Assembly: GCF_028737255.1 (NCBI RefSeq)
Contig: NZ_JAQZAN010000024.1
Coordinates: 1 to 64,000 of the forward strand
DNA: 64,000 nt
Source: Actinomycetospora straminea
GTDB taxonomy: Bacteria > Actinomycetota > Actinomycetes > Mycobacteriales > Pseudonocardiaceae
Reading direction: 5' to 3'
Shown here: in pieces, positions 43,207 through 57,948 of the stretch
Layout of the letters: each line of letters begins with the position of its first letter
How positions within the stretch are numbered: position 1 is the first letter of the stretch
Notes under the pieces: generated by a model
The model's input: the letters and a program-made list of their open reading frames with translations, nothing else
Databases searched by the model: none
Told to the model about the DNA's origin: nothing
Program-made: the position numbers and the translations under genes

Positions 43207-44052
43207 ATGGAGCCCTCGTCGGCCCTGCCCCCGGCCTACTTCCACGCGGGGACGGCCTCGTTCGTCGACTTCCTGCGCGAGGTCCGGCCCGACCTGCTGC
43301 CCGGGTCGAACGCGCGGCCGGTGACGGCCGAGCAGGCCGGCCCGTCCGGGACCGGCACCGCCGCGCACGGCACGACGATCGTGGCCGCGACGTTCTCCGG
43401 CGGCGTCGCCATCGCCGGTGACCGGCGCGCGACGATGGGCAACCTCATCTCCTCGCGCGACATGCAGAAGGTGTTCGTCACCGACGACTGGACGGCGGCG
43501 GGCATCGCGGGCACCGCGGGGATGGCCGTCGAGGCCGTGCGCCTGTTCACCGTCGAGCTGCAGCACTACGAGAAGCTCGAGGGCGTCCCGCTCACCTTCG
43601 ACGGCAAGGCGAACAAGCTCGCCGGCATGGTGCGGGGCAACCTCGGCGCCGCGATGCAGGGCCTGTCGTTCGTCCCGCTGTTCGTCGGCTTCGACGTCGA
43701 TGCCGCCGACCCGGCCCGCGCCGGCCGGATCATCTCCTACGACGTCGTCGGCACCCGCAGCGAGGAGACCCACTACGCCGGGGTCGGCTCCGGCTCGCTG
43801 TTCGCCAAGTCGGCGCTGAAGAAGCGCCACGACCCGCAGGGCTCGCGCGACGACGTCGTGCGCACGCTCGTCGAGGCGCTCTACGACGCCGCCGACGACG
43901 ACTCCGCCACCGGCGGTCCCGACACCATCCGCGGCATCAACCCGGTGGTCGTGACGATCGACGCCGAGGGCGCGACGATGCTCACCGACGACGAGGTCGG
44001 CACGGTCGCCGACGCCGTCGTCGCCGGGCGCCGCGAGCGCCCCGGCGGCTGA
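43207..44052 (+). CDS. prcB: Proteasome beta subunit
   Basis: 281 residues. A 55-residue propeptide precedes the catalytic threonine: processing at AAHG/TTIVAATF exposes T56. The Ntn-hydrolase residues GGVAIAGDRRAT (Asp/Arg) and the lysine near RDMQKVFV are in place. It forms the two inner rings of the 20S core. Start ATG 43207 follows AGGAG at 43191-43195; prcA follows 60 bases on. Confidence 0.97.
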   Translation: MEPSSALPPAYFHAGTASFVDFLREVRPDLLPGSNARPVTAEQAGPSGTGTAAHGTTIVAATFSGGVAIAGDRRATMGNLISSRDMQKVFVTDDWTAAGIAGTAGMAVEAVRLFTVELQHYEKLEGVPLTFDGKANKLAGMVRGNLGAAMQGLSFVPLFVGFDVDAADPARAGRIISYDVVGTRSEETHYAGVGSGSLFAKSALKKRHDPQGSRDDVVRTLVEALYDAADDDSATGGPDTIRGINPVVVTIDAEGATMLTDDEVGTVADAVVAGRRERPGG

Positions 44053-44112
44053 TCCGGCCGGCCCACCCGAGACCCACCCCACCCGAGCCCAGACCCAGGA
44101 GCGCTCCCCGCC

Positions 44113-44943
44113 ATGACGATGCCGTTCTACGCGTCGGTCGACCAGCTGATGCGCGACCGCTCGGACCTCGCGCGCAAGGGCATCGCGCGGGGCCGCAGCG
44201 TCGTCGTGCTGACCTTCGCCGGCGGCGTGCTGTTCGTGGCGGAGAACCGGTCGAACTCGCTGCGCAAGGTCTCGGAGATCTACGACGCGATCGGGTTCGC
44301 CGCGGTCGGCCGGTACAACGAGTTCGAGAACCTGCGCACCGCGGGCATCCGCTACGCCGACGTGCGGGGCTACACCTACGACCGCCGCGACGTCTCCGGG
44401 CGCTCGCTGGCCAACGCCTACGCCCAGATCCTGGGCGCGAGCTTCATCGAGCAGCAGAAGCCGTTCGAGGTCGAGCTCTGCGTCGCCGAGGTCGGCGAGA
44501 CCCCCGACCGCGACAAGCTCTTCCGCATCACCTACGACGGGTCGATCTCCGACGAGCCCCGCTTCGTGGTCATGGGCGGCACCACCGAGCCGATCAGCGC
44601 GGCGCTCCGGAGCTCCTACGAGTCCGACCTCGAGATGCGCGACGCCCTGCGCATCGCGCTCGAGGCGCTGCAGTCGGCGAACGGGTCGTCGTCAAGCGCG
44701 TCCTCGTCGTCCTCGTCGTCCTCGTCGTCCGCGGAGGCCCTCGGGGTCGACGCCCTCGAGGTGGCCGTGCTCGACCGGGCCCGCCGTCCCCGCCGCGCCT
44801 TCCGCCGGGTCACCGGGGCGGCGCTCGCCGAGCTCCTGCCCGGGAACGCGGCGCCGGAGTCGTCGGCGGACGCCTCGGAGGGCACCGACACCGGCGCCGG
44901 CGACGAGGTCTCGGGCGCGGGCGGGGCCGACCCCCAGGCCTAG
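44113..44943 (+). CDS. prcA: Proteasome alpha subunit with serine-rich insert
   Basis: 276 residues. The start [31 protein letters not shown] is the gate-forming and H0 helix region of PrcA; it lacks a catalytic Thr and forms the outer gating rings where Mpa docks. Between residues 192 and 208 a run of serines ([15 protein letters not shown]) interrupts the C-terminal helix, and the last 35 residues are acidic and disordered, longer than in mycobacterial PrcA. The run is made of tcgtcc-type codons in a 9-bp repeat (about 44688-44731). Confidence 0.95.
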
Positions 44944-45014: not shown

Positions 45015-45971
45015 GTGCGGACACCGTCGTCGTCACACCTGGCGAACCTCGACCTCAACCTGCTGGTGTCGCTGCGCGAACTGCTGCGCGAGCGCAACGT
45101 GACGCGGGCGGCCGCGCGGGTCGGGGTCACGCAGCCGGCCGCGAGCGCCGCGCTGTCCCGCCTGCGCCGCCACTTCGACGACGAGCTGCTCACCCGCCAC
45201 AACGGGAGCTACGTGCTCACCCCGCTCGCCGCGCAGCTGGCGGAGCAGGTCGAGGGCGTGTGCGCGGCCGCGGAACGGCTCTTCGGCACGGGCCGGCAGT
45301 TCGACCCGGCGACGACCCGGCGCGGCTTCACGCTGCTGCTCGCCGACTACACGATCGCGGTGCTCGGGACGGCGCTCTCCTCGGCGCTCGCGGTGCGCGC
45401 CCCGGGCGTGGAGCTACGGCTGCGGCTGGTGCGGGAGTCGTTCACCGCCGACATCGCCGAGACGAGCCGGCTGATCGACGGCGTGGTGGCGCCGCCGTCG
45501 CCGCGCTTCGACCGCCCTGACCTGCGCTCGGTCGAGCTCTTCCGCGACCGCTGGGTCCTCCTGCTCGACGCCGCCCACCCCGCCGCGGACGACGAGCTCA
45601 CCCCCGCGGTGCTCGCGGCCCTGCCCTGGGTGGTGCCGTTCGCGCCCGACCGCGGGTTCTCGACGGCGGTGCCGATGACCCGCGAGCTCGCCCGGCTCGG
45701 GATCGAGCCCGACACCCGCGTGCGCGTGGAGAGCTACCTCGGGGTGCCCCACCTGGTGGCCGGCACCGACCGGGTGGCGCTGGTGCAGGAGCGGCTGGCC
45801 CGGGAGGTCGCGCCGCGGCTCGGGCTCGTGGTGCGCGAGTGCCCGGCCTCGGAGCGCGCCCCGGCCGCCGCGGAGATCCGGGAGCGGTTCTGGTGGCACG
45901 CCGACCTCGACGGCGACCCCGCCCACCGGTGGCTGCGCGAGCTCCTCGTCGAGCTGGGCGCGGGCGTCTGA
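45015..45971 (+). CDS. LysR-family transcriptional regulator
   Basis: 318 residues. The winged HTH at the N-terminus reads LDLNLLVSLRELLRERNVTRAAARVGVTQPAASAALSRLRRHFDDELLTR, close to NodD-type LysR proteins; the effector domain of about 200 residues follows. LysR proteins usually control an adjacent operon in response to a pathway metabolite. It reads in the same direction as the catabolic operon beginning 85 bases later. GTG 45015 is chosen from the usual distance to the HTH; ATG 44964 and 44973 are in frame. Confidence 0.9.
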   Translation: MRTPSSSHLANLDLNLLVSLRELLRERNVTRAAARVGVTQPAASAALSRLRRHFDDELLTRHNGSYVLTPLAAQLAEQVEGVCAAAERLFGTGRQFDPATTRRGFTLLLADYTIAVLGTALSSALAVRAPGVELRLRLVRESFTADIAETSRLIDGVVAPPSPRFDRPDLRSVELFRDRWVLLLDAAHPAADDELTPAVLAALPWVVPFAPDRGFSTAVPMTRELARLGIEPDTRVRVESYLGVPHLVAGTDRVALVQERLAREVAPRLGLVVRECPASERAPAAAEIRERFWWHADLDGDPAHRWLRELLVELGAGV

Positions 45972-45974
45972 CCC

Positions 45975-46003
45975 CCTCGCCATCAACGCGGTTGATGGTG
46001 AGG
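45975..46003. promoter_or_regulatory. Candidate LysR operator (13-bp arms, T-N11-A)
   Basis: CCTCGCCATCAAC and GTTGATGGTGAGG flank GCG, with one mismatch between the arms. It contains TCAACGCGGTTGA, the T-N11-A core of LysR sites, 41 bases upstream of the operon's -10 hexamer. It could also act as a terminator for the lysR gene. Confidence 0.6.
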
Positions 46004-46043
46004 CAGCGCGAATCGCTATTTCCGCGCGCCACCCGTCCCTTCC

Positions 46044-46049
46044 TAGCGT
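46044..46049 (+). promoter_or_regulatory. Predicted -10 of the catabolic operon (leaderless)
   Basis: TAGCGT, 7 bases, then ATG 46057. Confidence 0.55.
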
Positions 46050-46056
46050 GTGACGC

Positions 46057-47373
46057 ATGCCGCACCCGCTCACCGACCTCCCGGTCCGCACCGTCGTGCG
46101 GGATGCGCTCCTGCACCCGGCCGACCCCGCCGAGCACCGGGTCGACGCCGACGTCTGCGTCGTCGGGGCCGGCATCGCCGGGCTCTCCGCCGCCGTGGAG
46201 TCGGCGCGCCTCGGCCGCGACGTCGTGCTCGTGGACGCGCTGCCGGTGCTCGGCGGGCAGATGGTGAACTCGCTGATCGGCCTGTTCTGCGGGGCGTTCG
46301 GCAACGCGCCGGAGCACCGCCGGCTCACCTACGGCCTGCTCGACGACATCTTCACCGACCTCGGGGCGAGCGGGGACATCTTCTACCGCGTCGGCCACAC
46401 CATCACCGTCGGCTACGACGAGGTGCGGCTGGGGCGCTGGGTGGAGGACACCGTCCGCGAGCACGGGATCAAGGTGCTCACGGGCGCGTCGCTGGTGGGC
46501 GTGGACCGCGAGGGCGACCGGGTCCTCGGCGCCCGGTTCGCCACCCGCTACGGCGCGGTCGACGTCCGGGCCCACGGCTTCGTCGACGCCAGCGGCGACG
46601 CCGCCCTGTGCTGGGCGGCGGGCCTGCCCTGCCGCCTGCCCGAGCGGGAGATCTACGGCAGCCAGCAGCTGGTCGTCGAGCACCTCGACGAGTCCGACCC
46701 GCCCGAGCCCGCCGACCTCGCGGCGCGCGTCGCGGCCAAGGCCGCCGAGTACGGGCTGCGCCGCCACGACGGCCTCGCCTTCTACTTCCCGGGCCGCGGC
46801 ACCGCGGTGCTCAACATGACCCACATCGAGGCCCCGCTCGACCCGATCGCGGCCGCCGAGGCCCAGCTCGAGGGCAAGGCCCAGGCCGACCGGGTGGTGG
46901 CGTTCCTGCGCGCCGAGTTCCCCGAGGTGTTCGGCAAGGCGTCGGTCCGCTCCTACGGGCTGCCCGGCCGCCGCCAGACCCGCTGGGTCGCCGGGGTCCA
47001 CCAGCTCACCGTCGACGAGGTCCGCGCCGGCACCCGCTTCCCCGACGCGGTCGCCCGCACCGCCTGGCCGATCGAGCTGCACGACACCCCGTCCGGCTAC
47101 GTGTGGGAGACCTTCGGGCCCGACCACCTGCACTACGTCCCGCTGCGCGCGATGACGCCGCCGGACACGGCGAACCTGCTGGTCGCGGGCCGCTGCGTCG
47201 ACGGCGACGCCGCGGCGCTCTCGAGCGTGCGGGTGATGGGCCCGTGCGCGGCGATGGGCCACGCCGCCGCGCACGTCCTCGACCTCGTCGGCCCCGACGG
47301 CACCGTCCACGACGTCCCCGCCCGCCGGGCCGCCGAGCTCACCGACCGCATCCGGCCCAACGTCGAGGACTGA
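46057..47373 (+). CDS. FAD-dependent oxidoreductase
   Basis: 438 residues. VDADVCVVGAGIAGLSAAVESARLG (GxGxxG at 37-42) begins the FAD Rossmann fold, followed by VLGGQMVNSLIGLFCG. VDASGDAALCWAAGLPC in the middle and NLLVAGRCVDGDAAALSSVRVMGPCAAMGHAAAH at the end are typical of the FAD_oxidored (PF12831) family, whose substrates are mostly unknown; a small carboxylate or hydroxy-acid dehydrogenation is plausible. First gene of the operon; the aconitase X large subunit starts 10 bases after it. Confidence 0.85.
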   Translation: MPHPLTDLPVRTVVRDALLHPADPAEHRVDADVCVVGAGIAGLSAAVESARLGRDVVLVDALPVLGGQMVNSLIGLFCGAFGNAPEHRRLTYGLLDDIFTDLGASGDIFYRVGHTITVGYDEVRLGRWVEDTVREHGIKVLTGASLVGVDREGDRVLGARFATRYGAVDVRAHGFVDASGDAALCWAAGLPCRLPEREIYGSQQLVVEHLDESDPPEPADLAARVAAKAAEYGLRRHDGLAFYFPGRGTAVLNMTHIEAPLDPIAAAEAQLEGKAQADRVVAFLRAEFPEVFGKASVRSYGLPGRRQTRWVAGVHQLTVDEVRAGTRFPDAVARTAWPIELHDTPSGYVWETFGPDHLHYVPLRAMTPPDTANLLVAGRCVDGDAAALSSVRVMGPCAAMGHAAAHVLDLVGPDGTVHDVPARRAAELTDRIRPNVED

Positions 47374-47383
47374 GGCGCCCGCG

Positions 47384-48664
47384 ATGATCCTGACCGACGA
47401 CGACCGCCGCCTGCGGGACGGCGACGAGGGCCCGGCGGTGGCGGCCGCCATGGACCTGCTGGTCCGCTACGGCGAGGCCCTGGACGCCGAACGCCTCTGC
47501 GACGTCCGCAACGTCGCGGGCACCACGACCCAGCCCTCCCCGGTGAAGGCCCGCCTGGTCGCCGAGGGCGGCTGGGACCGGGCGTTCTCGCTGATCAACC
47601 TCGACGCCGACGAGACGCTGCCGATCCCGCCGATGGCCGTCCCGACCTGCCAGCTCCAGCACGGCTTCGGCCGCGACGCGGTCGGTGTCGCGCCCTACCC
47701 GCCCGAGATGATCGCGCTGCAGGACGACGGCGAGGCCTTCGTCGGGGCCCGCGGGGTCTCGGTGCTCGCCACCTGCACGCCGTACCAGGTCGGCAACCTG
47801 CCGGTGCGCGGCGAGCACTGCGCCTGGATGGAGTCCTCGGCGGTCGTCTACGCCAACAGCGTGCTCGGCGCCCGCACCAACTGCGAGGGCGGCGCCTCCA
47901 CCGGCGCGGCCAGCCTCACCGGACGCATCCCGTGCTGGGGCAACCACCGCGACGACGAGCGGCTCGGCACCCACCACGTGCGCGTCGAGACCCCGGTCGC
48001 GAGCTTCCTCGACTGGGGCCTGCTCGGCTACGCGGTCGGCGACGCCGTGCAGGAGGGCCGGCCCGTCGTCACCGGCGACCTCGCGCTCCCGGACCTCACC
48101 GACCTCAAGCACTTCGGCGCCGCCGCGGCCTCGTCGGGCGGGGTGGAGATGTACCACGTCCCCGGCGTCACGCCGGAGGCGACGAGCACCGAGGCGGCCT
48201 TCGGGGGGCGGCCGCCGCGGGACACCGTCGTCTTCGGGGCGGCCGAGCGCCGCGCGGCCTACGAGCGGCTCAACGACCAGGGGACGTGCGAGGACGTCGA
48301 CTTCGTCCTGCTCGGCTGCCCGCACGCCTCGCTCGACCAGCTCCGCGACGCCGCCCGCGCCCTCGAGGGCCGGCGCCTCGCCGACGGCACCGAGCTGTGG
48401 ATCATGGCGCCGCGGGCGCTGGTCGCCGTCGCCGAGCGCTCCGGCTACACCGCGGTCATCGAGGCGGCGGGCGGGCGGGTGCTCACCGACTCGTGCCCGG
48501 CGATGTCGCGCACCGCCCCCGCCGGCACCCGGGTGTTCGCCACCGACTCGGCCAAGCAGGCGCACTACCTGCCGGCGATCCTCGGGATCGAGGCGTGGTT
48601 CGGCACCACCGCGGAGTGCGTCGACGCCGCGGTGACCGGCCGCTGGCGGGGTGAGCTGCGGTGA
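47384..48664 (+). CDS. Aconitase X, catalytic (large) subunit
   Basis: 426 residues of the DUF521/AcnX type. NVAGTTTQPSP, PYPPEMIAL, CTPYQVGN (C131), YANSVLGARTNCEGG (C167) and the late LTDSCPAMS (about C371) are family hallmarks, the cysteines being the expected Fe-S ligands. Known AcnX members are dehydratases: cis-3-hydroxy-L-proline dehydratase in bacteria and phosphomevalonate dehydratase in archaea. Here the enzyme is split: the swivel domain is the next gene, overlapping by 4 bases. The substrate in this operon is unknown; dehydration of a hydroxylated carboxylate or amino acid is the most likely chemistry. Confidence 0.88.
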   Translation: MILTDDDRRLRDGDEGPAVAAAMDLLVRYGEALDAERLCDVRNVAGTTTQPSPVKARLVAEGGWDRAFSLINLDADETLPIPPMAVPTCQLQHGFGRDAVGVAPYPPEMIALQDDGEAFVGARGVSVLATCTPYQVGNLPVRGEHCAWMESSAVVYANSVLGARTNCEGGASTGAASLTGRIPCWGNHRDDERLGTHHVRVETPVASFLDWGLLGYAVGDAVQEGRPVVTGDLALPDLTDLKHFGAAAASSGGVEMYHVPGVTPEATSTEAAFGGRPPRDTVVFGAAERRAAYERLNDQGTCEDVDFVLLGCPHASLDQLRDAARALEGRRLADGTELWIMAPRALVAVAERSGYTAVIEAAGGRVLTDSCPAMSRTAPAGTRVFATDSAKQAHYLPAILGIEAWFGTTAECVDAAVTGRWRGELR

Positions 48665-49146
48665 CCGACCTCCAGCGCCCCGCGACCCGCGCCGGCGTCG
48701 TCCTGCGCGGGCGCACCGTCGTCCCCGGCGTCGTCACCGGCGAGGCGCTCGTCTCCCCGGAGACCATCTCCGGCTGGGGCGGCATCGACCCCGCCACCGG
48801 CACGATCATCGAGGCCCGCCACCCCCTGGCAGGCGTCTGCTTCACCGGGAAGATCCTCGTCTTCCCCGGCGCCAAGGGCTCCTCGGGCTGGTCGGGGTTC
48901 TTCCAGACCACGCGCCTGCTCGGCACCGCGCCGATCGGCATGGTCTTCGCGGTCACCACGACGAAGGCGGCGCTCGGGGCCGTGGTCACCCGCGTGCCCG
49001 CCCTCGCCGACCTCGACGCCGACCCGGTCGCGGTCCTGCGCACCGGCGACCGCATCCGGCTCGACGCGACGGCCGGGGTCGTCGAGCAGCTGGACCGCCC
49101 GGACAGGACAGCCCTGACCGACACGACAGCGGGGGAGGACCGATGA
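48661..49146 (+). CDS. Aconitase X, swivel (small) subunit
   Basis: 161 residues. GEALVSPETISGWGGIDPATGTIIEARHPLAGVCFTGKILVFPGAKGSSGWSGF is the DUF126 swivel-domain signature, with the GSSGxS substrate-carboxylate loop. It forms a heterodimer with the preceding large subunit. GTG 48661 overlaps the large-subunit stop, and its own stop overlaps the Rieske gene start (ATGA). Confidence 0.9.
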   Translation: MTDLQRPATRAGVVLRGRTVVPGVVTGEALVSPETISGWGGIDPATGTIIEARHPLAGVCFTGKILVFPGAKGSSGWSGFFQTTRLLGTAPIGMVFAVTTTKAALGAVVTRVPALADLDADPVAVLRTGDRIRLDATAGVVEQLDRPDRTALTDTTAGEDR

Positions 49147-49625
49147 GGATCGCGGTGATGCGCGCCGACGAGCTCGCGCCCGGCGAGCACCGCGTCGTGC
49201 AGGTCGGGCGGCGCTCGATCGGGGTGTTCCGCGTCGGCGACGAGTACTACGCGCTGGCCGACCACTGCCCCCACCAGGGCGGACCGCTGTGCCGGGGACG
49301 CGTCGCGCCGCTCGCCACCGCCGGCGCGCCCGGCGAGGTCGCCCTCGACCCCGACCGGCTCTTCGTCGCCTGCCCCTGGCACGGCTGGGAGTACGACGTC
49401 ACCACCGGCCAATCGTTCCTGGGCCCGGGGGAGGCGCCCGTGCGCAGCTACCCCGCCGAGGTGCTCCCCGGCGACCTCACGCCCGACCCCGTCACCGGCC
49501 GCGTCCCCGGCCCCTACGTCGCGGACACCTACGCGGTGACCGTCGAGGACCGCGTGGTCGTCGTCGACACCTCCGCACGTCGAGCAGCAGCCCCGGCTCC
49601 CGGGGTGGAGGAGACAGCACCGTGA
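49143..49625 (+). CDS. Rieske [2Fe-2S] protein
   Basis: 160 residues, a single Rieske domain. Ligands are C42 and H44 (DHCPHQGG) and C77 and H80 (VACPWHGWEYD). The 32-residue gap between the two ligand pairs is longer than in most small Rieske ferredoxins and includes an inserted loop (VAPLATAGAPGEVALD). No oxygenase catalytic domain is encoded, so it is an electron carrier or subunit, perhaps for the FAD enzyme. It is coupled to both neighbours by 4-base overlaps. Confidence 0.9.
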   Translation: MRIAVMRADELAPGEHRVVQVGRRSIGVFRVGDEYYALADHCPHQGGPLCRGRVAPLATAGAPGEVALDPDRLFVACPWHGWEYDVTTGQSFLGPGEAPVRSYPAEVLPGDLTPDPVTGRVPGPYVADTYAVTVEDRVVVVDTSARRAAAPAPGVEETAP

Positions 49626-50752
49626 CCGACACCCTGCCCGGCACCGCACCCGGCACCACAACCGACACCGCGGCCCGACCCCGGCGCGCGTCCCGCACGC
49701 CCGTCGTCGACGCCGACGTCCACCCGGCGGTGACCCCGCAGCGCCTGGCCCGCGAGCTGCCCGAGCCGTGGCGGCGGCGCTACGAGCGCTTCGGCGTGCG
49801 CGGGGCCCCGCCGCCGGCGATCTACCCGCGGACCCGCAACGGGGGCATGCGCGCGGACTCCCACCCGGCCTCGGGACCCCCGGGCAGCGACCTCGGGATG
49901 CTGCGCGAGCAGCTGCTCGACCCCTACGACGTCCTCGCGGGCGTGCTCATCCCGTTGCAGGGCCACACGTGGGGCGCCGAGGAGCCCGACTTCGCTGCCG
50001 CCCTGTGCCGGGCGCTCAACGACGTCCTCGTCGCCGACTTCCTCGACCCCGAGCCGCGGCTGCGCGCCAGCATCTGTCTCGCCCACGAGTCGCCCGAGCA
50101 GGCGATCGCCGAGATCGAGCGCCGCGCCGGCGATCCCCGGTTCGTCCAGGTCCTGTTCCCGAGCGGCACCCACCTGCCCCTGACCGACGCCAAGTACCGT
50201 CCGGTGCTCGCCGCGGCGGCCGAAGCCGGCCTGCCGATCGGGATGCACCTCGGCGGCACCGAGGGCCACCGCGGCGACGGCTGGCCGTCGTTCTACCTCG
50301 AGCAGCACGGCTGGTACGGCAACGCGATGGCGATGGCGCTGACCACGCTCGTCGCCGGCGGCGTGCTCGACGCCGTCCCGGACCTGCGCCTCGTGCTCGT
50401 CGAGGGCGGGCTGACCTGGGTGCCGTCGATGCTGTGGGGGCTCGACGAGGCCTGGGCGCGGTTCTCCGACGACGTGCCGTGGCTGCAGCGCCCGCCGTCG
50501 GAGATCGTGCGCGAGCGGTGCTGGTTCACCACGCAGCCGATCGACGAGCCGGAGAACCTCGAGCACCTGGCGGTGACGATCCGCCAGAGCGGGCTGGCGG
50601 ACCGGATCCTGTTCGCGTCCGACTACCCGCACTGGGACTTCGACGACCCGGTGACGGCGCTGCGCGTCCTCCCGGCCGACCTGCGCCGGCCGATGATGGC
50701 CCGCACGGGCGCGGCGCTCTACGGCATCGAGCTGCCCGAGGGGGCGTCGTGA
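49622..50752 (+). CDS. Amidohydrolase 2 family metal-dependent hydrolase (first copy)
   Basis: 376 residues. A TIM-barrel hydrolase of the ACMSD/LigY-like group: the first strand reads VVDADVHPAV (DxDxH rather than HxH), IGMHLGG gives a second metal histidine, and ILFASDYPHWDFDDP the late aspartate motif. Related enzymes decarboxylate or hydrate dicarboxylates and cleave C-C bonds in aromatic catabolism. The first 28 residues are Thr/Pro/Ala-rich. GTG 49622 overlaps the Rieske stop. Confidence 0.85.
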   Translation: MTDTLPGTAPGTTTDTAARPRRASRTPVVDADVHPAVTPQRLARELPEPWRRRYERFGVRGAPPPAIYPRTRNGGMRADSHPASGPPGSDLGMLREQLLDPYDVLAGVLIPLQGHTWGAEEPDFAAALCRALNDVLVADFLDPEPRLRASICLAHESPEQAIAEIERRAGDPRFVQVLFPSGTHLPLTDAKYRPVLAAAAEAGLPIGMHLGGTEGHRGDGWPSFYLEQHGWYGNAMAMALTTLVAGGVLDAVPDLRLVLVEGGLTWVPSMLWGLDEAWARFSDDVPWLQRPPSEIVRERCWFTTQPIDEPENLEHLAVTIRQSGLADRILFASDYPHWDFDDPVTALRVLPADLRRPMMARTGAALYGIELPEGAS

Positions 50753-51873
50753 CGGCCGGCGGGGTGGACGGGGTCGCCGGGGTGGGCGGGGCCGTCGACA
50801 CCGACACCCACGTCGCGCCCGCGTCGCTGGCCGCCCTGATGCCCTACCTCGCCCCGTTCTGGCGCGACTACGCGGAGGGCGCCGCCCTGCGCCTCGACCC
50901 CGCCCAGGCCGGCGCCTACCCGCCGGGCGCCACCGACGGGCCCGCCCCGGCCGACGTGGCGACGCTGCGCGAGCGGGTGCTCGACGTGCCCGCCCCGGGC
51001 GGGGTGCCGGTGCGGACCGCCGTGCTCAGCGCCACCTCGGCGTTCGACGTCAGCCGCAACCCCTACTACGACGCCGCGCTCTGCGGGGCGCTCAACGACT
51101 GGGTGGTCGAGCACTTCCTCGACCACGACGACCGGCTGCGCGGGGGCATCGCGGTCCCCTCCGGCGACCCGGAGGCGGCCGTCGCGGAGATCCACCGGCG
51201 CGCCGACGACCCGCGGTTCGTCCAGGTGCTGCTCCCGGTCCGGGGCCACGACCACCGCTACGGCCACCGCCGCTTCCTGCCCGTGCTCGAGGCCGCGTCC
51301 GAGGCCGGGCTCGCGGTGACCCTGCACGCGTGGGGCCGGGCGGGGAGCGCGGCCACGCCCACCGGGTTCACCCACACCTACCTCGCCGACTACCTCTCCC
51401 AGGGCCACCTGGCCCAGGCGCAGCTGACGAGCCTCGTCGTCGAGGGGGTCCTCGACCGGCTGCCCGGCCTGCGCGTGGTCGTCGCCGAGTGCGGGTTCTC
51501 CTGGCTGCCGCCGCTGCTCTGGCGGCTCGACAAGGAGTGGAAGGGCATCTGGCGCGAGGTGCCGTGGGTGCGCCGCCCACCGTCGTCGTACCTGCACGAG
51601 CAGGTGCGCTTCACCAGCACCCCGGCCCACCTGCCGACCGACGCCACCGAGCTCGCCGACGCGCTCGAGGTGATCGGGGCGGCCCGGCTCGTCATGTACG
51701 CGGGCGACCACCCCCACGTCCACGGCGACGGCACCGCCCGTCTGCTCGCGGCGCTCGGCCCCACCGAGCGCGCCGCGGTCCTCGCCGGCACCGCGGAGGA
51801 GTTCCTGCTCCGCCGCACGCCCACCGACTCGTCCACCCCCCGATCGCACCGTCGCGAGGAGGCTCCCCGATGA
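50749..51873 (+). CDS. Amidohydrolase 2 family metal-dependent hydrolase (second copy)
   Basis: 374 residues, a paralogue of the preceding protein. The first motif reads AVDTDTHVAP, then VTLHAWGR in place of IGMHLGG, VVAECGFSWLPPLLWRLD, and VMYAGDHPHVHGDG at the last metal site. Shared segments such as DRLRGGIAVPS and ADDPRFVQVLL show a common origin, but the active-site loops differ, so the two probably form a heteromer or act on successive intermediates. GTG 50749 and the following SBP start both use overlapping stops. Confidence 0.83.
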   Translation: MTAGGVDGVAGVGGAVDTDTHVAPASLAALMPYLAPFWRDYAEGAALRLDPAQAGAYPPGATDGPAPADVATLRERVLDVPAPGGVPVRTAVLSATSAFDVSRNPYYDAALCGALNDWVVEHFLDHDDRLRGGIAVPSGDPEAAVAEIHRRADDPRFVQVLLPVRGHDHRYGHRRFLPVLEAASEAGLAVTLHAWGRAGSAATPTGFTHTYLADYLSQGHLAQAQLTSLVVEGVLDRLPGLRVVVAECGFSWLPPLLWRLDKEWKGIWREVPWVRRPPSSYLHEQVRFTSTPAHLPTDATELADALEVIGAARLVMYAGDHPHVHGDGTARLLAALGPTERAAVLAGTAEEFLLRRTPTDSSTPRSHRREEAPR

Positions 51874-52913
51874 CCACCGCCCGAATCCGCCGACCGTGGG
51901 TGCGCCTGCTGGCCGGCCTGCTCGTCGCCTGCGCGGTGCTGGCCGGCTGCGGCGAGGGCGACACCACCGACGACGGCCGGCAGCGGATGACGTTCCTCAA
52001 CATCCTGCCGATCGAGTCGCTGTCCTACGCCCCGGAGCTCATCGCGGACACGCGCGGGTTCTTCGCCGCGCGCGGGCTGGAGGTCCGGTTCGAGGCCACC
52101 CAGGGCTCCGCGCCGGCGATCCAGACGCTGCTGGCGGGGTCGGCGGAGATCAGCCGCATCGGCGACATCGAGACCATGATCGCGGCGGGGAACCGCCAGG
52201 CGCCCCTCGTCGGGGTCGGCGAGGTCATCCACCGCGGGACGATCCGCGTGGTCTCGGCGAACGACGACCCGATCACCCAGCCCGCCCAGCTGCGCGGCAA
52301 GCTCATCGGGACCCCGTCGGAGGGCGGGACGAGCTCCATCACCCTCGACCTGCTCGCCGCCTCGGCCGGCGTGCCCCCGGCCGAGGTCCGCCGCCAGGTG
52401 GTCGGGCTCGCGCCCGGCGTGTTCGACCTGCTCACCGCGGGCCGCATCGACGGCTACATGGTCTCCCTGGACACCTCGGTCCTCCTGCAGCGCACGCGCC
52501 CCGAGGCCGTCGTCCTCGACCCCAACCAGTCGATCACCGCCGGCGCGCAGATCTACGCCACCTCGGCGCAGGCCGCCCGGGACCCCGCCGAGCAGGACAA
52601 GCTGCGCCGCTACCTCGCCGCGATCGACGACGCCGTGCGGTTCATCGTCGCCGACGAGGCGAACGGCTTCGCCGGGACCATGGCCGCGATCGGCGGGAAG
52701 TACCAGGTGCCGGCGCTGCGCGACCCGGAGACCGCGCGCCTCGCCCTCGCGGCCTACGTCGACTCCTACACCGGCGGCGAGAGCCTCACCGGTATCGCGC
52801 CGCAGCGCTGGCAGCAGACCTACAACGAGATCGTCGGGGTCGGGCAGCTGCCCGCGGGCCTCGACCCGAACCGGTGGATCGACACGACGCTGGCGCCCGC
52901 GGCGCCGTCCTGA
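51870..52913 (+). CDS. ABC importer substrate-binding lipoprotein (NitT/TauT type)
   Basis: 347 residues. A basic signal sequence and lipobox VLAGC (acylated C27) mark an extracytoplasmic lipoprotein. The mature part (SYAPELIADTRGFFAARGLEVRF; IGTPSEGGTSSITLDLLAASAG) is the SsuA/TauA/NMT1-like binding fold that delivers sulfonates, nitrate or aromatic and pyrimidine-like acids. The ligand cannot be read directly. It is coupled to the second amidohydrolase (ATGA), tying import to the catabolic enzymes. Confidence 0.9.
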   Translation: MTTARIRRPWVRLLAGLLVACAVLAGCGEGDTTDDGRQRMTFLNILPIESLSYAPELIADTRGFFAARGLEVRFEATQGSAPAIQTLLAGSAEISRIGDIETMIAAGNRQAPLVGVGEVIHRGTIRVVSANDDPITQPAQLRGKLIGTPSEGGTSSITLDLLAASAGVPPAEVRRQVVGLAPGVFDLLTAGRIDGYMVSLDTSVLLQRTRPEAVVLDPNQSITAGAQIYATSAQAARDPAEQDKLRRYLAAIDDAVRFIVADEANGFAGTMAAIGGKYQVPALRDPETARLALAAYVDSYTGGESLTGIAPQRWQQTYNEIVGVGQLPAGLDPNRWIDTTLAPAAPS

Positions 52914-52963
52914 CCCGCACCGATGCCGACCGGACACCCACCGCACCAGGCCAGGAGGCGGCG

Positions 52964-53845
52964 ATGACGACGCAGCAGACCCCCACGGCGACGTGGACCC
53001 CACCACCCGTCCGACGCGACGAGTTCGACGCGTCCGGCGACACCGCCGAGCCCGTGGGCTCGCGCGCCGTCGGGCTGCGGGTCGCGGGCGTCGACAAGAC
53101 CTACACGACGCGCCGCGGGGACGTGCACGCCCTGTCGGACATCGACCTCGAGGTGGGCCGGGGCGAGTTCGTCTCGCTCGTCGGGCGCTCGGGCTGCGGC
53201 AAGACGACGCTGCTGCGGGTCCTGTCGGGCCTGCTCGCGCCGACCGCGGGCACCGTCGAGGCCGGCGACCGCCCCGCGTGGGTGGCGGGACGCCGCGACG
53301 ACGCGGTGTTCGCGGAGTTCGGCCTGGTGTTCCAGGAGGCCAACCTCTTCCCGTGGTTCACGGTGGTCGACAACGTCGCGCTGCCGCTCAAGCTGCGGGG
53401 GGTCGGCAAGGCGGAGCGGCGGGCCCGGGCGACCGAGCTGTGCGCGACCGTCGGCCTCACCGGGTTCGAGGACTCGTACCCGCGCGAGCTCTCCGGCGGC
53501 ATGCGCCAGCGGGCCGCGATCGCGCGGGCGCTGGCGTGCGACCCGTCGGTGCTGCTCATGGACGAGCCGTTCGGCGCGCTGGACGCCATGACCCGCGACC
53601 GGATGAACCTCGAGCTGCAGCAGATCCACGCCGTGTCGGGGACGACGGTGGTGTTCGTGACGCACTCGATCAGCGAGGCGGTGTTCCTCGCCGACCGGGT
53701 CGTGCTGCTGACGCCCCGGCCCGGGCGCATCCGGTCCGTCACCCCGATCGACCTGCCCCGGCCACGCACGGTCGAGGTCGAGGCCACCGCGGAGTTCGGC
53801 GAGCTCGTCGTCGGGCTGCGTCGCCAGCTGGACGAGGAGGACTGA
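52964..53845 (+). CDS. ABC importer ATPase (NitT/TauT type)
   Basis: 293 residues. Walker A GRSGCGKTT (74-82), Q-loop FQEANLFPWFTV, signature LSGGMRQR, Walker B VLLMDEPFGALD and H-loop VTHSISEA are all intact. The sequence around FPWFTVVDNVALPLKLRG is that of SsuB/TauB. A 35-residue disordered extension precedes the domain. AGGAGG lies 6 bases before ATG 52964. Confidence 0.95.
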   Translation: MTTQQTPTATWTPPPVRRDEFDASGDTAEPVGSRAVGLRVAGVDKTYTTRRGDVHALSDIDLEVGRGEFVSLVGRSGCGKTTLLRVLSGLLAPTAGTVEAGDRPAWVAGRRDDAVFAEFGLVFQEANLFPWFTVVDNVALPLKLRGVGKAERRARATELCATVGLTGFEDSYPRELSGGMRQRAAIARALACDPSVLLMDEPFGALDAMTRDRMNLELQQIHAVSGTTVVFVTHSISEAVFLADRVVLLTPRPGRIRSVTPIDLPRPRTVEVEATAEFGELVVGLRRQLDEED

Positions 53846-53847
53846 CG

Positions 53848-54717
53848 GTGACGACCTCACTGGACCGGGACACCGACACCCGCACCGACGGCGCCCCGCC
53901 GCCCCCCGTCGACGCGGACGCCACCCCCGCCGAGGGCGAGTCGCCCTGGATGCGGCGGCTGCCGTGGGTCAGCGGGCCGCTGATGCTCGTCGCGCTGCTC
54001 GGGATCTGGCAGTTCGCGGTGTCCGTGGTCGGCGTCTCGGAGTTCATCCTCCCCGCGCCCGCGGCGGTCGTCGGGGCGCTCGGCGACCTCTTCGCCGACC
54101 CCGAGATCGGGAGCCACATCGGCGTCACCCTGTTCGAGGTGCTCGCGGGCTTCGGCATCGCGCTGGTGGTCGGGGTCGCCGTCGGCGCGACCCTCGGGCG
54201 CATCGCCTGGCTGCAGCGCGCGGTGCAGCCGGCGCTGGTGGCCCTGCAGGTGGTGCCGAAGGTGGCCTTCGTGCCGATCTTCGTCATCTGGTTCGGGTTC
54301 GGCCCGACCTCGAAGATCATCATGGCGGCGCTGCTGGCGTTCTTCCCGATCATGCTCAACGTGATGCTCGGGGTGCGCTCGGTGGACCGCGGCCACCGCG
54401 ACGTCATGCGGGGCCTCGGCGCGAGCAAGTGGGCGACGTTCCGGGACATGGAGCTCCCGACGACGCTGCCCTACGTCTTCGCGGGCGCCGAGGTCGCCAT
54501 CGTGTTCTCCGTGATCGGCGCGATCGTCGGCGAGTACCTCGGCGGCAGCCAGGGCCTCGGCTACCTCGTCGTGTCGAGCCTCAACGCCCTCGACGCGCCC
54601 CGGCTGTTCGCCGTGATCGTCCTGCTGGCAGTGCTGGGCTCGCTGCTCTACGTCGCGGTGACGACGGTGAAGAAGGTCGTCATCCCCTGGCACGACTCGG
54701 TCCGCACCGGGGTCTGA
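53848..54717 (+). CDS. ABC importer permease (NitT/TauT type)
   Basis: 289 residues with six predicted membrane helices after a disordered, acidic N-terminus of about 35 residues. The coupling (EAA) loop is MRGLGASKWATFRDMELPTTLPYVFAG, as in SsuC/TauC. GTG 53848 begins 2 bases after the ATPase stop. Last gene of the operon; its stop is one base from that of the convergent lipid-kinase gene. Confidence 0.93.
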   Translation: MTTSLDRDTDTRTDGAPPPPVDADATPAEGESPWMRRLPWVSGPLMLVALLGIWQFAVSVVGVSEFILPAPAAVVGALGDLFADPEIGSHIGVTLFEVLAGFGIALVVGVAVGATLGRIAWLQRAVQPALVALQVVPKVAFVPIFVIWFGFGPTSKIIMAALLAFFPIMLNVMLGVRSVDRGHRDVMRGLGASKWATFRDMELPTTLPYVFAGAEVAIVFSVIGAIVGEYLGGSQGLGYLVVSSLNALDAPRLFAVIVLLAVLGSLLYVAVTTVKKVVIPWHDSVRTGV

Positions 54718-54718
54718 G

Positions 54719-56248
54719 CTACACCTCGCGCGGCCGGTAGACGGGGATCGCGCCCGGGGCGATCCGGAAGACGAACCGGTCGGCGTCGGGCTGCACCTCG
54801 CCGTCGGTCGCGAGCCCGACCGGCGGGCCGACGACGCGCACCGAGAGCCGGGTGCGGGTGTTGGCCACGTAGACGCGGCTGCGCGAGAGCGTGCCCGCGA
54901 GCACCGAGACGACGAAGCGGGTGCGCGAGAACGGCACGTCCGCGCGCAGGAAGCGCACGTCGAGCACGCGGGCGTCGAGGCGCGGGCGGAACAGCGGCGC
55001 CATGCCGCGCGGCTCGTAGCCGCCGTTGCCGACGAAGAGCAGCCAGATCGTCCGGCGCTTGCCGTCGATCTCGACGACCAGCGGCGACGCCTCGGCGAGC
55101 ACGCGGACCAGCGCGAACGCCGCCGACGGCCACTTGCCCCAGCGCTCCTCCCAGCTCTCGCGGAGCCGGACCATGTCCGGGTAGCCGCCGAGGCTCGCGG
55201 TGTTGACGAACGCGACGCTGCGGGTCTCGCCCCCGTCGCCCGCGGTCATGTCGACGACGCCGACGTCGACGAGCACCGCGTCGCCGTCGCGGGCCGCGCT
55301 CAGCGCCGTCGGGGTGTCGTCGACGCCGACGTCGCGGGCGAAGTGGTTCAGGGTGCCCTCGGGCAGCACCATCAGCGGCACCCGCCGCCGCTGCGCGAGC
55401 CCGGCGAGCGCGGCCACCGACCCGTCGCCCCCGGCCACCCCGATCGCGCGCGGTTCGGTGCCGTCGGCGGTGGGGCGGTCGAGGGCGGCCTCGACCTCGT
55501 CGACGAAGTCGATGCCCGGCTCCGGCACGATCACCTGGGCGCGGGGCAGGACCTCGTGGATCTCCGAGGGCGGCGCCGGCGGCTCGGGCTCGCCGTCGGT
55601 GTCCGCGACGCCGATCACGGGCGCCACGATCTGGCCGAGCGTCTCCAGCGGCCCGGGCGTCCCGGCCGAGCTGTTGGCGACGACGACGAGCCCGGCGCCG
55701 TCCCCGAGGGCGGGGGCGTTGCCGGCCGGGCGGGCGCGGGCCGGGGCGTGGCGCACGACCGGCCACCAGCGGCGCGTCAGCAGCGCCACGCCGATGCCGA
55801 GTCCGGCGCCGGCGACCACGTCCTCGACCGTCCGTTCCCCGAGGACCACCCGGGCGGTCGACACCCCGACCGCGACCGGCGCCAGCACGCCCCCGAGCAG
55901 CGGCGACTCCATGGCGGCGGCGGTGACGAACGCCGTCGAGGACGCCGCGTGCGCGGACGGGAAGCGCCGGCCCCAGGGCCGCGCGCGGGGCAGCAGCGGC
56001 TTGGCCAGCGCGTGGGCGATCGCCGAGGTCGCGGCCGCGGCCATCACCCCGCGCACCCCGGCGCGGCGGCGCGGACCGCGCCCCGAGGCCATGAGCCCGC
56101 CGGCCACCGCGGCCCACAGGAGCCCGCGGTCGGCGGTGCGGTCGAGGCGGCCGAGCCAGCGGGGCAGGGCGGGGGAGCGGTCGACGCCGGGGAGGTCGCG
56201 CACGGGGAGGTCGCGCACCGGGAGGTCGCGCACCGGGAGGTCGCTCAC
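54719..56248 (-). CDS. PAP2-diacylglycerol kinase fusion with degenerate phosphatase site
   Basis: 509 residues. The N-terminal part (about 35-165) is a PAP2-like membrane domain: KPLLPRARP (83-91), then PSAH (97-100) instead of PSGH, and ARVVLGERTVEDV where the catalytic histidine is replaced by R139 and the Ser by A132. The C-terminal part is a DGK catalytic domain with GVAGGDGSVAALAG and LPEGTLNHFARDVGV, and an intact downstream region. The phosphatase half is probably inactive while the lipid-kinase half is probably active. The start overlaps the stop of the upstream paralogue (GTGA). The first 20 residues are VRDLP repeats. Confidence 0.87.
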   Translation of the reverse strand: MSDLPVRDLPVRDLPVRDLPGVDRSPALPRWLGRLDRTADRGLLWAAVAGGLMASGRGPRRRAGVRGVMAAAATSAIAHALAKPLLPRARPWGRRFPSAHAASSTAFVTAAAMESPLLGGVLAPVAVGVSTARVVLGERTVEDVVAGAGLGIGVALLTRRWWPVVRHAPARARPAGNAPALGDGAGLVVVANSSAGTPGPLETLGQIVAPVIGVADTDGEPEPPAPPSEIHEVLPRAQVIVPEPGIDFVDEVEAALDRPTADGTEPRAIGVAGGDGSVAALAGLAQRRRVPLMVLPEGTLNHFARDVGVDDTPTALSAARDGDAVLVDVGVVDMTAGDGGETRSVAFVNTASLGGYPDMVRLRESWEERWGKWPSAAFALVRVLAEASPLVVEIDGKRRTIWLLFVGNGGYEPRGMAPLFRPRLDARVLDVRFLRADVPFSRTRFVVSVLAGTLSRSRVYVANTRTRLSVRVVGPPVGLATDGEVQPDADRFVFRIAPGAIPVYRPREV

Positions 56249-56250
56249 CG
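56191..56250 (-). repeat. 15-bp tandem repeat, 4 units, at the start of the second PAP2-DGK gene
   Basis: ggaggtcgcgcaccg repeats at 56191, 56206, 56221 and 56236 with one or no changes. Read on the minus strand it encodes VRDLP (or VSDLP), and the last unit spans the GTG start. Confidence 0.95.
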
Positions 56251-57837
56251 GGCGGTCGCGCGGTGCGGCCAGCGCGCCTCGTCGCGGCGGTAGACGGGGA
56301 CGGGGTGGTCGGCCACCCGGTAGCGCAGCCGGCGGGCACGCCCGACGACCTCGCCGTCGGCGGCGACGTCGACCGGCCCGTCGAGCAGCTCGATGTCCAG
56401 CGACCGCATGGCGCTCTCCTGGTAGATCCTGTTGTGCCCGAGCACGCCGGTGGCCAGGGCGAGAAAGGCCCGGGCCCGGGCGAACGGCCGGTCGGCGCGC
56501 AGGTAGCGGACCTCCAGCACGCCGGTGTCGAGCCGGGGCCGGTACGACGGCACCATCCCCGTCGGCACGTAGGGCCCGTTGCCGACGAACAGCATCCACA
56601 CCGAGCGCTCCACCCCGTTGAGGCGGACACGGATCGGCCGGCTGCGCGCCAACGTCACGAGCAGCGCGACGACGGCGGCGGGCCATTTGCCCCAGCGCTT
56701 CTGCCACTTCTCGCGCAGGCGGACCATCTCGGGGTAACCGCCGAACGCCGAGGTGTTGACGAAGACGACCCGGCGGGGCTCCTGGCGGCCCTCGGCGTCG
56801 GCGTGCAGCCGCAGCTCCCCGAGGTCGACGGCGACGGCCTCGCCCGCGCCGGTCGCGTCGATCGCCTCCTGGGTGTCGTAGACACCGACGTCGCGACCGA
56901 AGTGGTTGAGCGTGCCGGCGGGGATCAGCGCCAGGGGCAGGTCGAGGTCCTCGGCCACCCGGGCCGCGGCGGCCACCGAGCCGTCGCCGCCGGCGATGCC
57001 CACCGCCCGCACGCCGGGCTCGCGGGCGGCGTCGATGAGCGTCTCGGCGAGGTCGGCCCCGTCCTCGAGGCGCAGGACCCGGGCGCGGGGGAGGGCGCCG
57101 ACGAGCTCCTCGTACGGGTCGACGCCCGCCCGGCCCGAGCGGGTGTTGACGAGCACGACCAGGCCCTCGCCCTCGGGCAGCACGGGCGCGCCGGCCACGG
57201 GCCGGGCGGCGGCCTCGTCGATGCTGCGCAGCGGGAGCCAGCGGCGGGTGGCCAGGGCGGCGCCGGCCCCGAGGGCGACGCCCGCGGCGACGTCGCTGGT
57301 CCAGTGCACGCCGACGTGCACCCGGGAGTACGCCACCGTCGCGGCCAGCGGGACCACCCACGTCGCGGCCTTCGGGCTCTCCATCGCGACGGCGGTGGCG
57401 AACGCGGCGGCGGAGGCGGCGTGGCCGGAGGGGAAGGACGACGAGGTGGGCGGGTCGTCGAGGGAGCGGTAGTCGGGCAGGAGCTCGGCGGCGGGCCGGC
57501 GGCGGGGCACCAGGGGCTTGAGGACGGCGTTGGCCAGGAAGCTCGCCCCGGCGATCGCGAGCACCCCGCGCAGCCCGCCGCGGCGGGTGTGGCGTGTCCC
57601 GGCGGCGAGCACGCCGGCGACGGCGAACCACAGCCTGCTGTGGTCGGCGGACCGGCTCAGGGCGGCCAGCGCAGGGTCGGCGACCGTGTAGGGCAGCGCC
57701 CCGATCGCGGTCGTGATCCGGCAGTCCTGCTCGTTGACGTCGGCCAGCCGCTGCCGGCTGCCCCGCGCCCCCTGCCGCACCCGGCGGCCCACGCCACGGG
57801 AGATGTCGGTTGCCAGTCCTCGTGCGGGGAGCGCCAC
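56245..57837 (-). CDS. PAP2-diacylglycerol kinase fusion, both sites intact
   Basis: 530 residues. The PAP2 domain has all three motifs: KPLVPRRRP (107-115), PSGHA (136-140) and SRVHVGVHWTSD with H178 and D182. The DGK domain from about 225 has GIAGGDGSVAAAA (GGDGS 283-287) and IPAGTLNHFGRDVGV. It should both dephosphorylate a lipid phosphate at the membrane and phosphorylate a lipid in the cytosol, acting in phospholipid or isoprenoid carrier turnover. GTG 57837 follows TACGGT by 7 bases. The second copy is coupled to it. Confidence 0.9.
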   Translation of the reverse strand: MALPARGLATDISRGVGRRVRQGARGSRQRLADVNEQDCRITTAIGALPYTVADPALAALSRSADHSRLWFAVAGVLAAGTRHTRRGGLRGVLAIAGASFLANAVLKPLVPRRRPAAELLPDYRSLDDPPTSSSFPSGHAASAAAFATAVAMESPKAATWVVPLAATVAYSRVHVGVHWTSDVAAGVALGAGAALATRRWLPLRSIDEAAARPVAGAPVLPEGEGLVVLVNTRSGRAGVDPYEELVGALPRARVLRLEDGADLAETLIDAAREPGVRAVGIAGGDGSVAAAARVAEDLDLPLALIPAGTLNHFGRDVGVYDTQEAIDATGAGEAVAVDLGELRLHADAEGRQEPRRVVFVNTSAFGGYPEMVRLREKWQKRWGKWPAAVVALLVTLARSRPIRVRLNGVERSVWMLFVGNGPYVPTGMVPSYRPRLDTGVLEVRYLRADRPFARARAFLALATGVLGHNRIYQESAMRSLDIELLDGPVDVAADGEVVGRARRLRYRVADHPVPVYRRDEARWPHRATAR

Positions 57838-57844
57838 GGCGTCG

Positions 57845-57850
57845 ACCGTA
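57845..57850 (-). promoter_or_regulatory. Predicted -10 of the PAP2-DGK operon (leaderless)
   Basis: TACGGT on the minus strand, 7 bases before GTG 57837. Confidence 0.55.
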
Positions 57851-57948
57851 GTGATCGGGCCCCGACGGCTCGGTGCTGCCCCGCGGCGGAGGCGCCGGTG
57901 GGGGTGACGCGGGCCGTCGCAGAGGCCACAACGGCGGGTCCGCTGGCC

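Follow-up and report, generated by a model that had tools for sequence, protein, structure and literature searches.

A LysR-linked operon of Actinomycetospora straminea that joins a split aconitase X to a predicted AibH1H2-type monooxygenase

Positions 45015–54717 of the DNA analysed here, a stretch of 64,000 nucleotides from the soil actinobacterium Actinomycetospora straminea (contig NZ_JAQZAN010000024.1; hereafter, the window), hold ten tightly packed genes on the + strand, running from a LysR-family regulator to the permease of an ATP-binding cassette (ABC) importer. We consider it probable, judging from sequence comparison, that these genes form a LysR-controlled catabolic operon whose products import a small organic acid, hydroxylate it at the expense of O2, and oxidise and dehydrate it. 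An earlier note on this DNA had placed the ten genes where we find them and in the families to which Pfam matches assign them, and had proposed an uncharacterised import-and-catabolise operon with a split aconitase X (AcnX), in agreement with the open-access literature searched, in which we met no described pathway with this gene set. Its 'C-C hydrolase/decarboxylase pair', on the other hand, has to be reinterpreted: sequence match, ligand signature and the neighbouring Rieske gene point to a dinuclear monooxygenase of the AibH1H2 type.

The predicted oxygenase and the aconitase X

The two genes in question, H2 (49622..50752, +) and H1 (50749..51873, +), encode members of the Amidohydro_2 family (PF04909; E 3e-38 and 7e-30, respectively). 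In a PDB sequence search, their best solved relatives were AibH2 for H2 (6m1w_B, E 5e-75) and AibH1 for H1 (6m2i_A, 6e-56), the subunits of the Rhodococcus 2-aminoisobutyrate hydroxylase, to which a Rieske protein gives electrons (PMC7782822, PMC10401708). AibH2 binds two metals, given as Fe/Fe in PMC7782822 and as Mn/Fe in PMC10401708, and AibH1 binds one. All six AibH2 ligands listed in PMC7782822 (D25, H27, H211, E265, D337, H340) are kept in H2 (D32, H34, H209, E261, D334, H337), as is the second-sphere Asp342 (D339), whose D342A exchange diminishes the activity of AibH2 (PMC10401708); the five AibH1 ligands (D24, H26, H201, E255, D328) are likewise all kept in H1 (D19, H21, H193, E247, D320). 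The gene that adjoins H2 encodes a Rieske [2Fe-2S] ferredoxin with an intact C-x-H...C-x2-H motif (49143..49625, +; PF00355, E 4e-17), putatively an AibG-like electron donor, and AibH2-like genes are often adjoined by a Rieske gene and permeases (PMC10401708). We thus predict that H2 is the catalytic subunit of a dinuclear monooxygenase and H1 its partner.

The signature extends to the AcnX-linked loci of other genomes (L and G numbers are our labels for loci and genomes). With the window included, the six ligands plus Asp are complete in 12 of 13 H2-type rows, the exception being L110, whose last two positions are gapped, and the five ligands are complete in 11 of 13 H1-type rows, the other two being two pieces of the L055 H1; the rows from L108 and L110 that were called H2 by best match are H1-type by signature. 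Among 49 rows found with H2 in genomes of the class, 29 have all six ligands, and many of the 20 incomplete ones are probably partner subunits; the second-sphere Asp is present in just 7 of the 29. A further PF04909 paralogue lies in the window's genome at G000:C55:14297-15157, 29% identical to H2 and with one stop codon in the matched stretch.

The closest described system is the AibH1H2GF/aib cluster of Rhodococcus wratislaviensis C31-06, which, in the accounts of PMC7782822 and PMC10401708, shares with the window paired H1 and H2 proteins with all metal ligands, a Rieske protein, a LysR regulator and the setting in a catabolic operon. The ten genes differ from it in lacking the AibF reductase and the enzyme families of aibD1, E, C and A, in having an ABC importer instead of an amino-acid permease, and in the added FAD-AcnX core, where FAD stands for the flavin adenine dinucleotide-dependent enzyme described below; 2-aminoisobutyrate (Aib) is therefore an unlikely substrate. 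AibF-type reductases belong to the aib cluster and not to the definition of the ARO (amidohydrolase-related dinuclear oxygenase) family given in PMC10811679, and three PF14759 ferredoxin reductases are encoded elsewhere in the window's genome. The FAD protein was considered as a dedicated reductase of the oxygenase and rejected, its gene being kept in many loci without an oxygenase. SfbO and other AROs (PMC10811679) resemble the window's enzyme in their PF04909 domain, dinuclear ligand set and Rieske neighbour; the window differs from them in its clear H1/H2 pair, and the sulfate-binding Arg232 and Arg235 of SfbO align, by eye, with His and Tyr of H2.

AcnX is split into a large subunit (47384..48664, +; PF04412, E 2e-109) and a small, swivel subunit (48661..49146, +; PF01989, E 3e-22), which score 222.6 and 67.7 bits. 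By phmmer, the large subunit matches TkAcnX at E 8e-56 and AtAcnX more weakly, at 1e-40. Counted by hand on the alignments, with the letters then checked, the cluster cysteines of TkAcnX (110, 283 and 342) have their counterparts in C131, C312 and C371 of the large subunit, and E129, S130, S131, K361 and Y365 to E150, S151, S152, K391 and Y395, so that the carboxylate-binding residues of the archaeal enzyme are kept along with the cluster; the catalytic base, Ser62 of the TkAcnX small subunit, is Ser74 here. From this conservation, the enzyme is predicted to be a [4Fe-4S]-type dehydratase that acts on a beta-hydroxy carboxylate. Its substrate is probably not 3-hydroxyproline, because the residues that bind the nitrogen of that compound were not found: the position of AtAcnX Thr72 is Gly76 of the small subunit, and for Asp203 there is no Asp in large-subunit residues 44-63, a stretch whose alignment is uncertain. 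The proline-like substrate considered in the earlier note is accordingly disfavoured.

TkAcnX, a type IIb mevalonate 5-phosphate dehydratase (PMC8184944), has the same split subunits, three cluster cysteines and Glu/Ser/Lys/Tyr set; the window differs in its bacterial catabolic context and in having no mevalonate gene among the ten. Its phosphate loop is not recognisable in the alignment: residues 45-121, which would cover the counterparts of Gly48, Val49, Ser50, Asn53 and Asn79, were left unaligned by phmmer, and the loop reads GTTTQPS, without Asn. With AtAcnX (PMC8184944) the window shares the dehydratase family, the catalytic Ser and a Trp at the position of Trp35; it departs from it, beyond the Thr72 and Asp203 positions, in the third cluster cysteine and in having no hydroxyproline gene among the ten. 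For AcnX of types IIc to IIf, which carry no landmark residue of either known function, no role has been described (PMC8184944), and it is with this kind that we would tentatively group the window's AcnX. The FAD-dependent oxidoreductase encoded upstream (46057..47373, +; PF12831, E 4e-73) matched PDB profiles mostly through its N-terminal nucleotide-binding part, judging from the best 60 of 174 matches, and is a probable dehydrogenase of the core module.

A FAD-AcnX core with exchangeable modules

The linkage, which the earlier note had left to a search of other genomes, is conserved in Actinomycetospora and Pseudonocardia. A scan of genome contigs with the AcnX alignment gave 386 relatives, of which the best 80 were studied; the closest named ones are from Actinomycetospora, with the AcnX of A. 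lemnae 96% identical. The same ten genes stand in the same order in A. lemnae, A. callitridis, A. chibensis and Pseudonocardia sp. ICBG1293 (68-97% identity by gene; in ICBG1293, LysR lies ~1.2 kb away) and in G660 (64-90%). G418 has the ten genes plus an IlvD gene, and the operon of Pseudonocardia sp. KRD291 is cut by a contig end. Given this recurrence, the ten-gene linkage is more than chance.

A FAD gene of at least 45% identity over >80% of the length is found in 60 of the 80 loci, and FAD and AcnX are therefore the core of the system, with the oxygenase as one of several exchangeable modules, next to an IlvD-type dehydratase and further dehydrogenases. An IlvD/EDD dehydratase accompanies AcnX in 52 of the 80 loci, oxygenase subunits in 11 (7 from Actinomycetota, 4 from Pseudomonadota; the sequence of L110 stops short of a Rieske gene), neither in 17, several of which are cut by contig ends, and both in none; the weak similarity to H1 or H2 (30-33%) seen in L057 and L096 was left out of these counts. 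For a second sample, a family search for AcnX (E<=1e-100) found 40 places in 39 of 390 genomes, of which 20, chosen as seemingly outside the named set, were taken; three of them (L166, L169 and L176) duplicated L050, L053 and L072 and were dropped. The remaining 17 loci comprise 11 with IlvD only, 4 with neither module, one with the oxygenase only (L161) and one with both: L159, from the same genus as the window, reads LysR-FAD-IlvD-AcnX-Rieske-H2-H1-importer in a single operon. Over all 98 rows, 63 have IlvD only, 13 the oxygenase only, 21 neither and 1 both. Strict mutual exclusion of the two modules, which the first sample had suggested, is broken by L159; they are not exclusive, if rarely together, and may catalyse successive steps.

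The IlvD/EDD-FAD-AcnX operons of actinobacteria and proteobacteria (for instance L046 and L149) have related FAD and AcnX proteins and often a LysR gene; where the window has the oxygenase, they carry a dihydroxy-acid-dehydratase paralogue. The open-access literature searched describes no function of these operons, nor does it describe the FAD-AcnX core or the combination of such an oxygenase with AcnX; each enzyme class is known. The words aconitase, dehydratase and AcnX are absent from the searched text of PMC10811679, and aconitase from that of PMC10401708. Transporters at FAD-AcnX loci vary, comprising NitT/TauT and branched-chain-type ABC, TAXI/TRAP, TctC, Fe- or phosphonate-type ABC and a major facilitator superfamily (MFS) transporter that most resembles the AAHS and MHS (shikimate) families and scores under their cut-offs. 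Most of these transporter families carry organic anions. TauD/TfdA, present in 4 of 82 loci (L114:16488-17375, L115:16433-17311, L116:15174-16049, L150:11083-11900), was rejected as a third alternative to IlvD, since L150 combines it with IlvD and L116 with the oxygenase. Plasmid searches returned IlvD-type and unlinked-oxygenase contexts, L150 being without annotation.

Other neighbours recur at these loci. A relative of the UGSC family (seleno)protein (NF041046, PF24696) and a protein of ~370 amino acids without Pfam match adjoin FAD-AcnX loci (L032:4203-5847; near AcnX in L057, L074, L076, L100, L168 and L178; beside an unlinked oxygenase in L188), and are possibly another module of the same chemistry. 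A gene for pre-mycofactocin synthase MftD lies near AcnX in Phytoactinopolyspora (L034:2530-3759), and its relatives do so in Microbacterium and as AcnX neighbours in L095 and L102. Two Streptomyces loci have a second homologue of the AcnX small subunit upstream (L082:5220, 55%; L083:5114, 52% to the window's).

The oxygenase can also lie apart from AcnX in the same genome. In a genus represented by 62 genomes, presumably Pseudonocardia, since coordinates of G697 and G699 match those of named loci, nine genomes carry AcnX, and the oxygenase is linked in three of these (G660, G697, G699). In six, no oxygenase is seen at the AcnX locus, and four of them encode a related pair at another place (G663, G672, G698 and G717; H2 52-55%); the AcnX locus of G717 is cut by a contig end. 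At E<=1e-100, an oxygenase is present in 7 of the 9 AcnX carriers and in 10 of the 53 other genomes (Fisher p 0.001, kinship ignored). In G663 it resides in a cassette LysR-Rieske-H2-H1-(~1 kb)-SBP, where SBP is a solute-binding protein, with H2 54-55% and SBP 66% identical to their counterparts in the window; a cassette of this kind is present in G699 as well, beside the linked form, and its ~1 kb presumably holds a hydrolase-like frame. Unlinked oxygenase cassettes carry a related LysR, and the SBPs of two of them, L179 and L182, are 66-67% identical to that of the window. In G698 and G672, whose AcnX loci are without oxygenase, Rieske-H2-H1 stands beside LysR, an AAHS-type MFS transporter, NDMA-type alcohol dehydrogenases and an aldehyde dehydrogenase.

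Of nine loci of the genus with an unlinked oxygenase (L179-L182, L185-L189), five have such NDMA-type genes nearby; L183, whose H2 match is weaker, and the decayed remnant L184 were left out. The AcnX locus L057 carries the same dehydrogenases (Rxyl_3153), which we take to be mycofactocin-linked. This arrangement is consistent with oxidation of an alcohol that the oxygenase has produced, by analogy with Aib catabolism, in cells also using AcnX, and is no proof of a single pathway. The remnant L184 (G685:C1:2879001-2899000) is a decayed relative of the operon with an H2 of 75% identity and short matches to the SBP, ATPase and permease, and without match to FAD, AcnX or Rieske. An oxygenase tree, made by a quick method that gave long-branch warnings, unites the eight actinobacterial linked H2 rows in a single clade and places the proteobacterial linked H2s among three plasmid oxygenases around which no AcnX gene is annotated within 10 kb; from this mixing, the association of oxygenase and AcnX probably arose, or was kept, more than once.

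Layout of the operon and a candidate operator

The regulator gene (45015..45971, +; PF00126/PF03466), relatives of which (47-95%) adjoin FAD-AcnX in other loci, is separated by 85 bases from the FAD gene, which in turn ends 10 bases before the AcnX large subunit. From there to the lipoprotein, genes join by 4-base overlaps with ATG or GTG starts; the earlier note had counted six such junctions, and all are indeed of 4 bases, but only five exist. Overlaps at the next two would require CTG starts, at 52910 for the ATPase and 53842 for the permease, and ATG 52964 and GTG 53848 are the better choices. The NitT/TauT-type importer is complete, with an NMT1-type solute-binding lipoprotein (51870..52913, +; PF09084), one ATPase (52964..53845, +) and one permease (BPD; 53848..54717, +). 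As no importer protein reached an NCBIfam cut-off among the matches listed (for the ATPase, the best 25 of 187), no ligand is assigned to it. Directly upstream of the LysR gene lie two consecutive open reading frames (43207-44943, +) that, as we presume, resemble proteasome beta and alpha subunits. Downstream, on the opposite strand, two tandem paralogous long proteins (54719-57931, -, and overlapping reading frames beyond) presumably resemble a PAP2-type phosphatase fused to a diacylglycerol-kinase-like domain.

Between the LysR and FAD genes, a perfect palindrome, CCATCAAC-GCG-GTTGATGG (45980..45998), of the T-N11-A type may be a LysR operator. It is the sole match in the window, with 0 in 100 shuffles. 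The best-scoring similar site lies 76-78 bases before the start of the FAD match in 13 of 29 loci, of oxygenase and IlvD types alike; its score was reached by at most 2 of 200 base shuffles in 14 of the 29 and by more in the other 15. In 18 selected regions, at most 5 of 300 shuffles reached the site in seven: the window, L162, L164, L168, the LysR-MFS gap of L180, and L180 and L181 upstream of the Rieske gene (-75/-76), so that a similar LysR-type site precedes these two unlinked cassettes. T-N11-A sites being general for LysR proteins, this evidence is supportive, not decisive.

A possible pathway and its alternatives

How might these proteins cooperate? We envision that the NitT/TauT-type importer brings in an organic acid, and that H1H2, with a Mn/Fe or Fe/Fe centre and electrons from the Rieske ferredoxin and a reductase encoded elsewhere, hydroxylates one of its C-H bonds with one oxygen atom from O2. 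The FAD oxidoreductase would oxidise an intermediate, and AcnX would remove water from a beta-hydroxy carboxylate, which would be the hydroxylase product, either directly or after oxidation. That all of them act in one pathway, as well as the order of steps, the metal and the use of the hydroxylase product by AcnX, is what we infer. The substrate is probably an organic anion without a ring nitrogen like that of 3-hydroxyproline, and the IlvD module of relatives hints at polyhydroxylated or branched acids. Hydroxyproline, mevalonate, carnitine, ectoine, tartrate, hydroxycitrate, quinate and others were weighed, and as none fits all modules, none is claimed. More tentatively, and with somewhat less than even confidence, we suggest a new aerobic pathway built on the widespread FAD-AcnX core, in which a Mn/Fe monooxygenase of amidohydrolase fold installs the hydroxyl that allows an AcnX of a new substrate class, from among the types without known function, to eliminate water, other lineages using a dihydroxy-acid dehydratase paralogue and one close relative both.

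Alternatively, H1 and H2 might be two C-C hydrolases or decarboxylases of the amidohydrolase type, working alongside AcnX in the breakdown of a hydroxylated acid, cyclic or dicarboxylic; this appears very improbable to us. PF04909 does include decarboxylases (for example of 5-carboxyvanillate and gamma-resorcylate), but in the PDB search these score below AibH2 and AibH1, reaching at best 8e-10 with H2 and 6e-11 with H1, whereas AibH2, AibH1 and other AROs match H2 at 5e-75 to 2e-49. The complete dinuclear ligand set with its second-sphere Asp, the adjoining Rieske gene and the split of H1 and H2 into two parallel clades of the oxygenase tree, as in a fixed heteromer, also speak for an oxygenase. 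Such an oxygenase might conceivably replace IlvD, acting on the same intermediate or giving the same product by different chemistry, and we rate this as improbable. The idea draws on the first sample, in which 0 of 81 loci (window included) have both modules (Fisher p 7e-7, kinship ignored), on a quick-method AcnX tree along which the oxygenase/IlvD label changes at least five times, four of them forced by starred branches, and on the window's genome, which has no IlvD of the linked clade: its three IlvD/EDD homologues are at most 41.5% identical to the 49 linked IlvDs compared, which share at least 46% among themselves. It is contradicted by L159, a test on 5 independent pairs of the first sample was not significant, and it is not obvious what product a hydroxylase could share with a dihydroxy-acid dehydratase.

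It is rather unlikely, in our judgement, that the oxygenase and AcnX serve different compounds, a cassette with its own substrate having been inserted into an importer operon whose AcnX-FAD pair handles another. Several observations that favour this possibility weigh against a single pathway. The oxygenase is optional, most of the FAD-AcnX loci studied being without it, and L160 in G663 is the window's operon without Rieske-H2-H1; the unlinked forms have their own LysR, transporter and dehydrogenases; and in the genus of 62 genomes, ten have a related oxygenase without AcnX, and two (G675, G690) have AcnX with no oxygenase at E<=1e-100, either genome-wide or at the AcnX locus. Our reading is further burdened by the lack of a ferredoxin reductase in the operon, none of the ten genes encoding an AibF-like flavin reductase, and by the candidate operator, whose consensus was set with the sites of the window and L085 already in view and which failed in 11 of the 18 regions, including the close relatives L159 (37 of 300 shuffles) and L161 (156 of 300) and the cassettes L182 (22 of 300) and L179 (103 of 300). 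Two separate compounds, however, are hard to reconcile with an association found in two phyla, with co-occurrence in the genus, with the 4-base overlaps that flank the cassette on both sides, and with the related regulators and binding proteins of its cis and trans forms.

Should the pathway exist in the more tentative form given above, it would represent a two-enzyme activation and desaturation of a small organic acid that is free of coenzyme A. For most AROs the substrate is unknown, with 555 AibH2-like proteins uncharacterised (PMC10401708), and for annotators, pairs of 'amidohydrolases' that adjoin a Rieske gene may be oxygenases. The locus described here ties an ARO to an AcnX of probably new specificity, so that the substrate question of both families becomes approachable together: the lipoprotein could serve to identify the ligand, and expression could be read out from the LysR site and operon.

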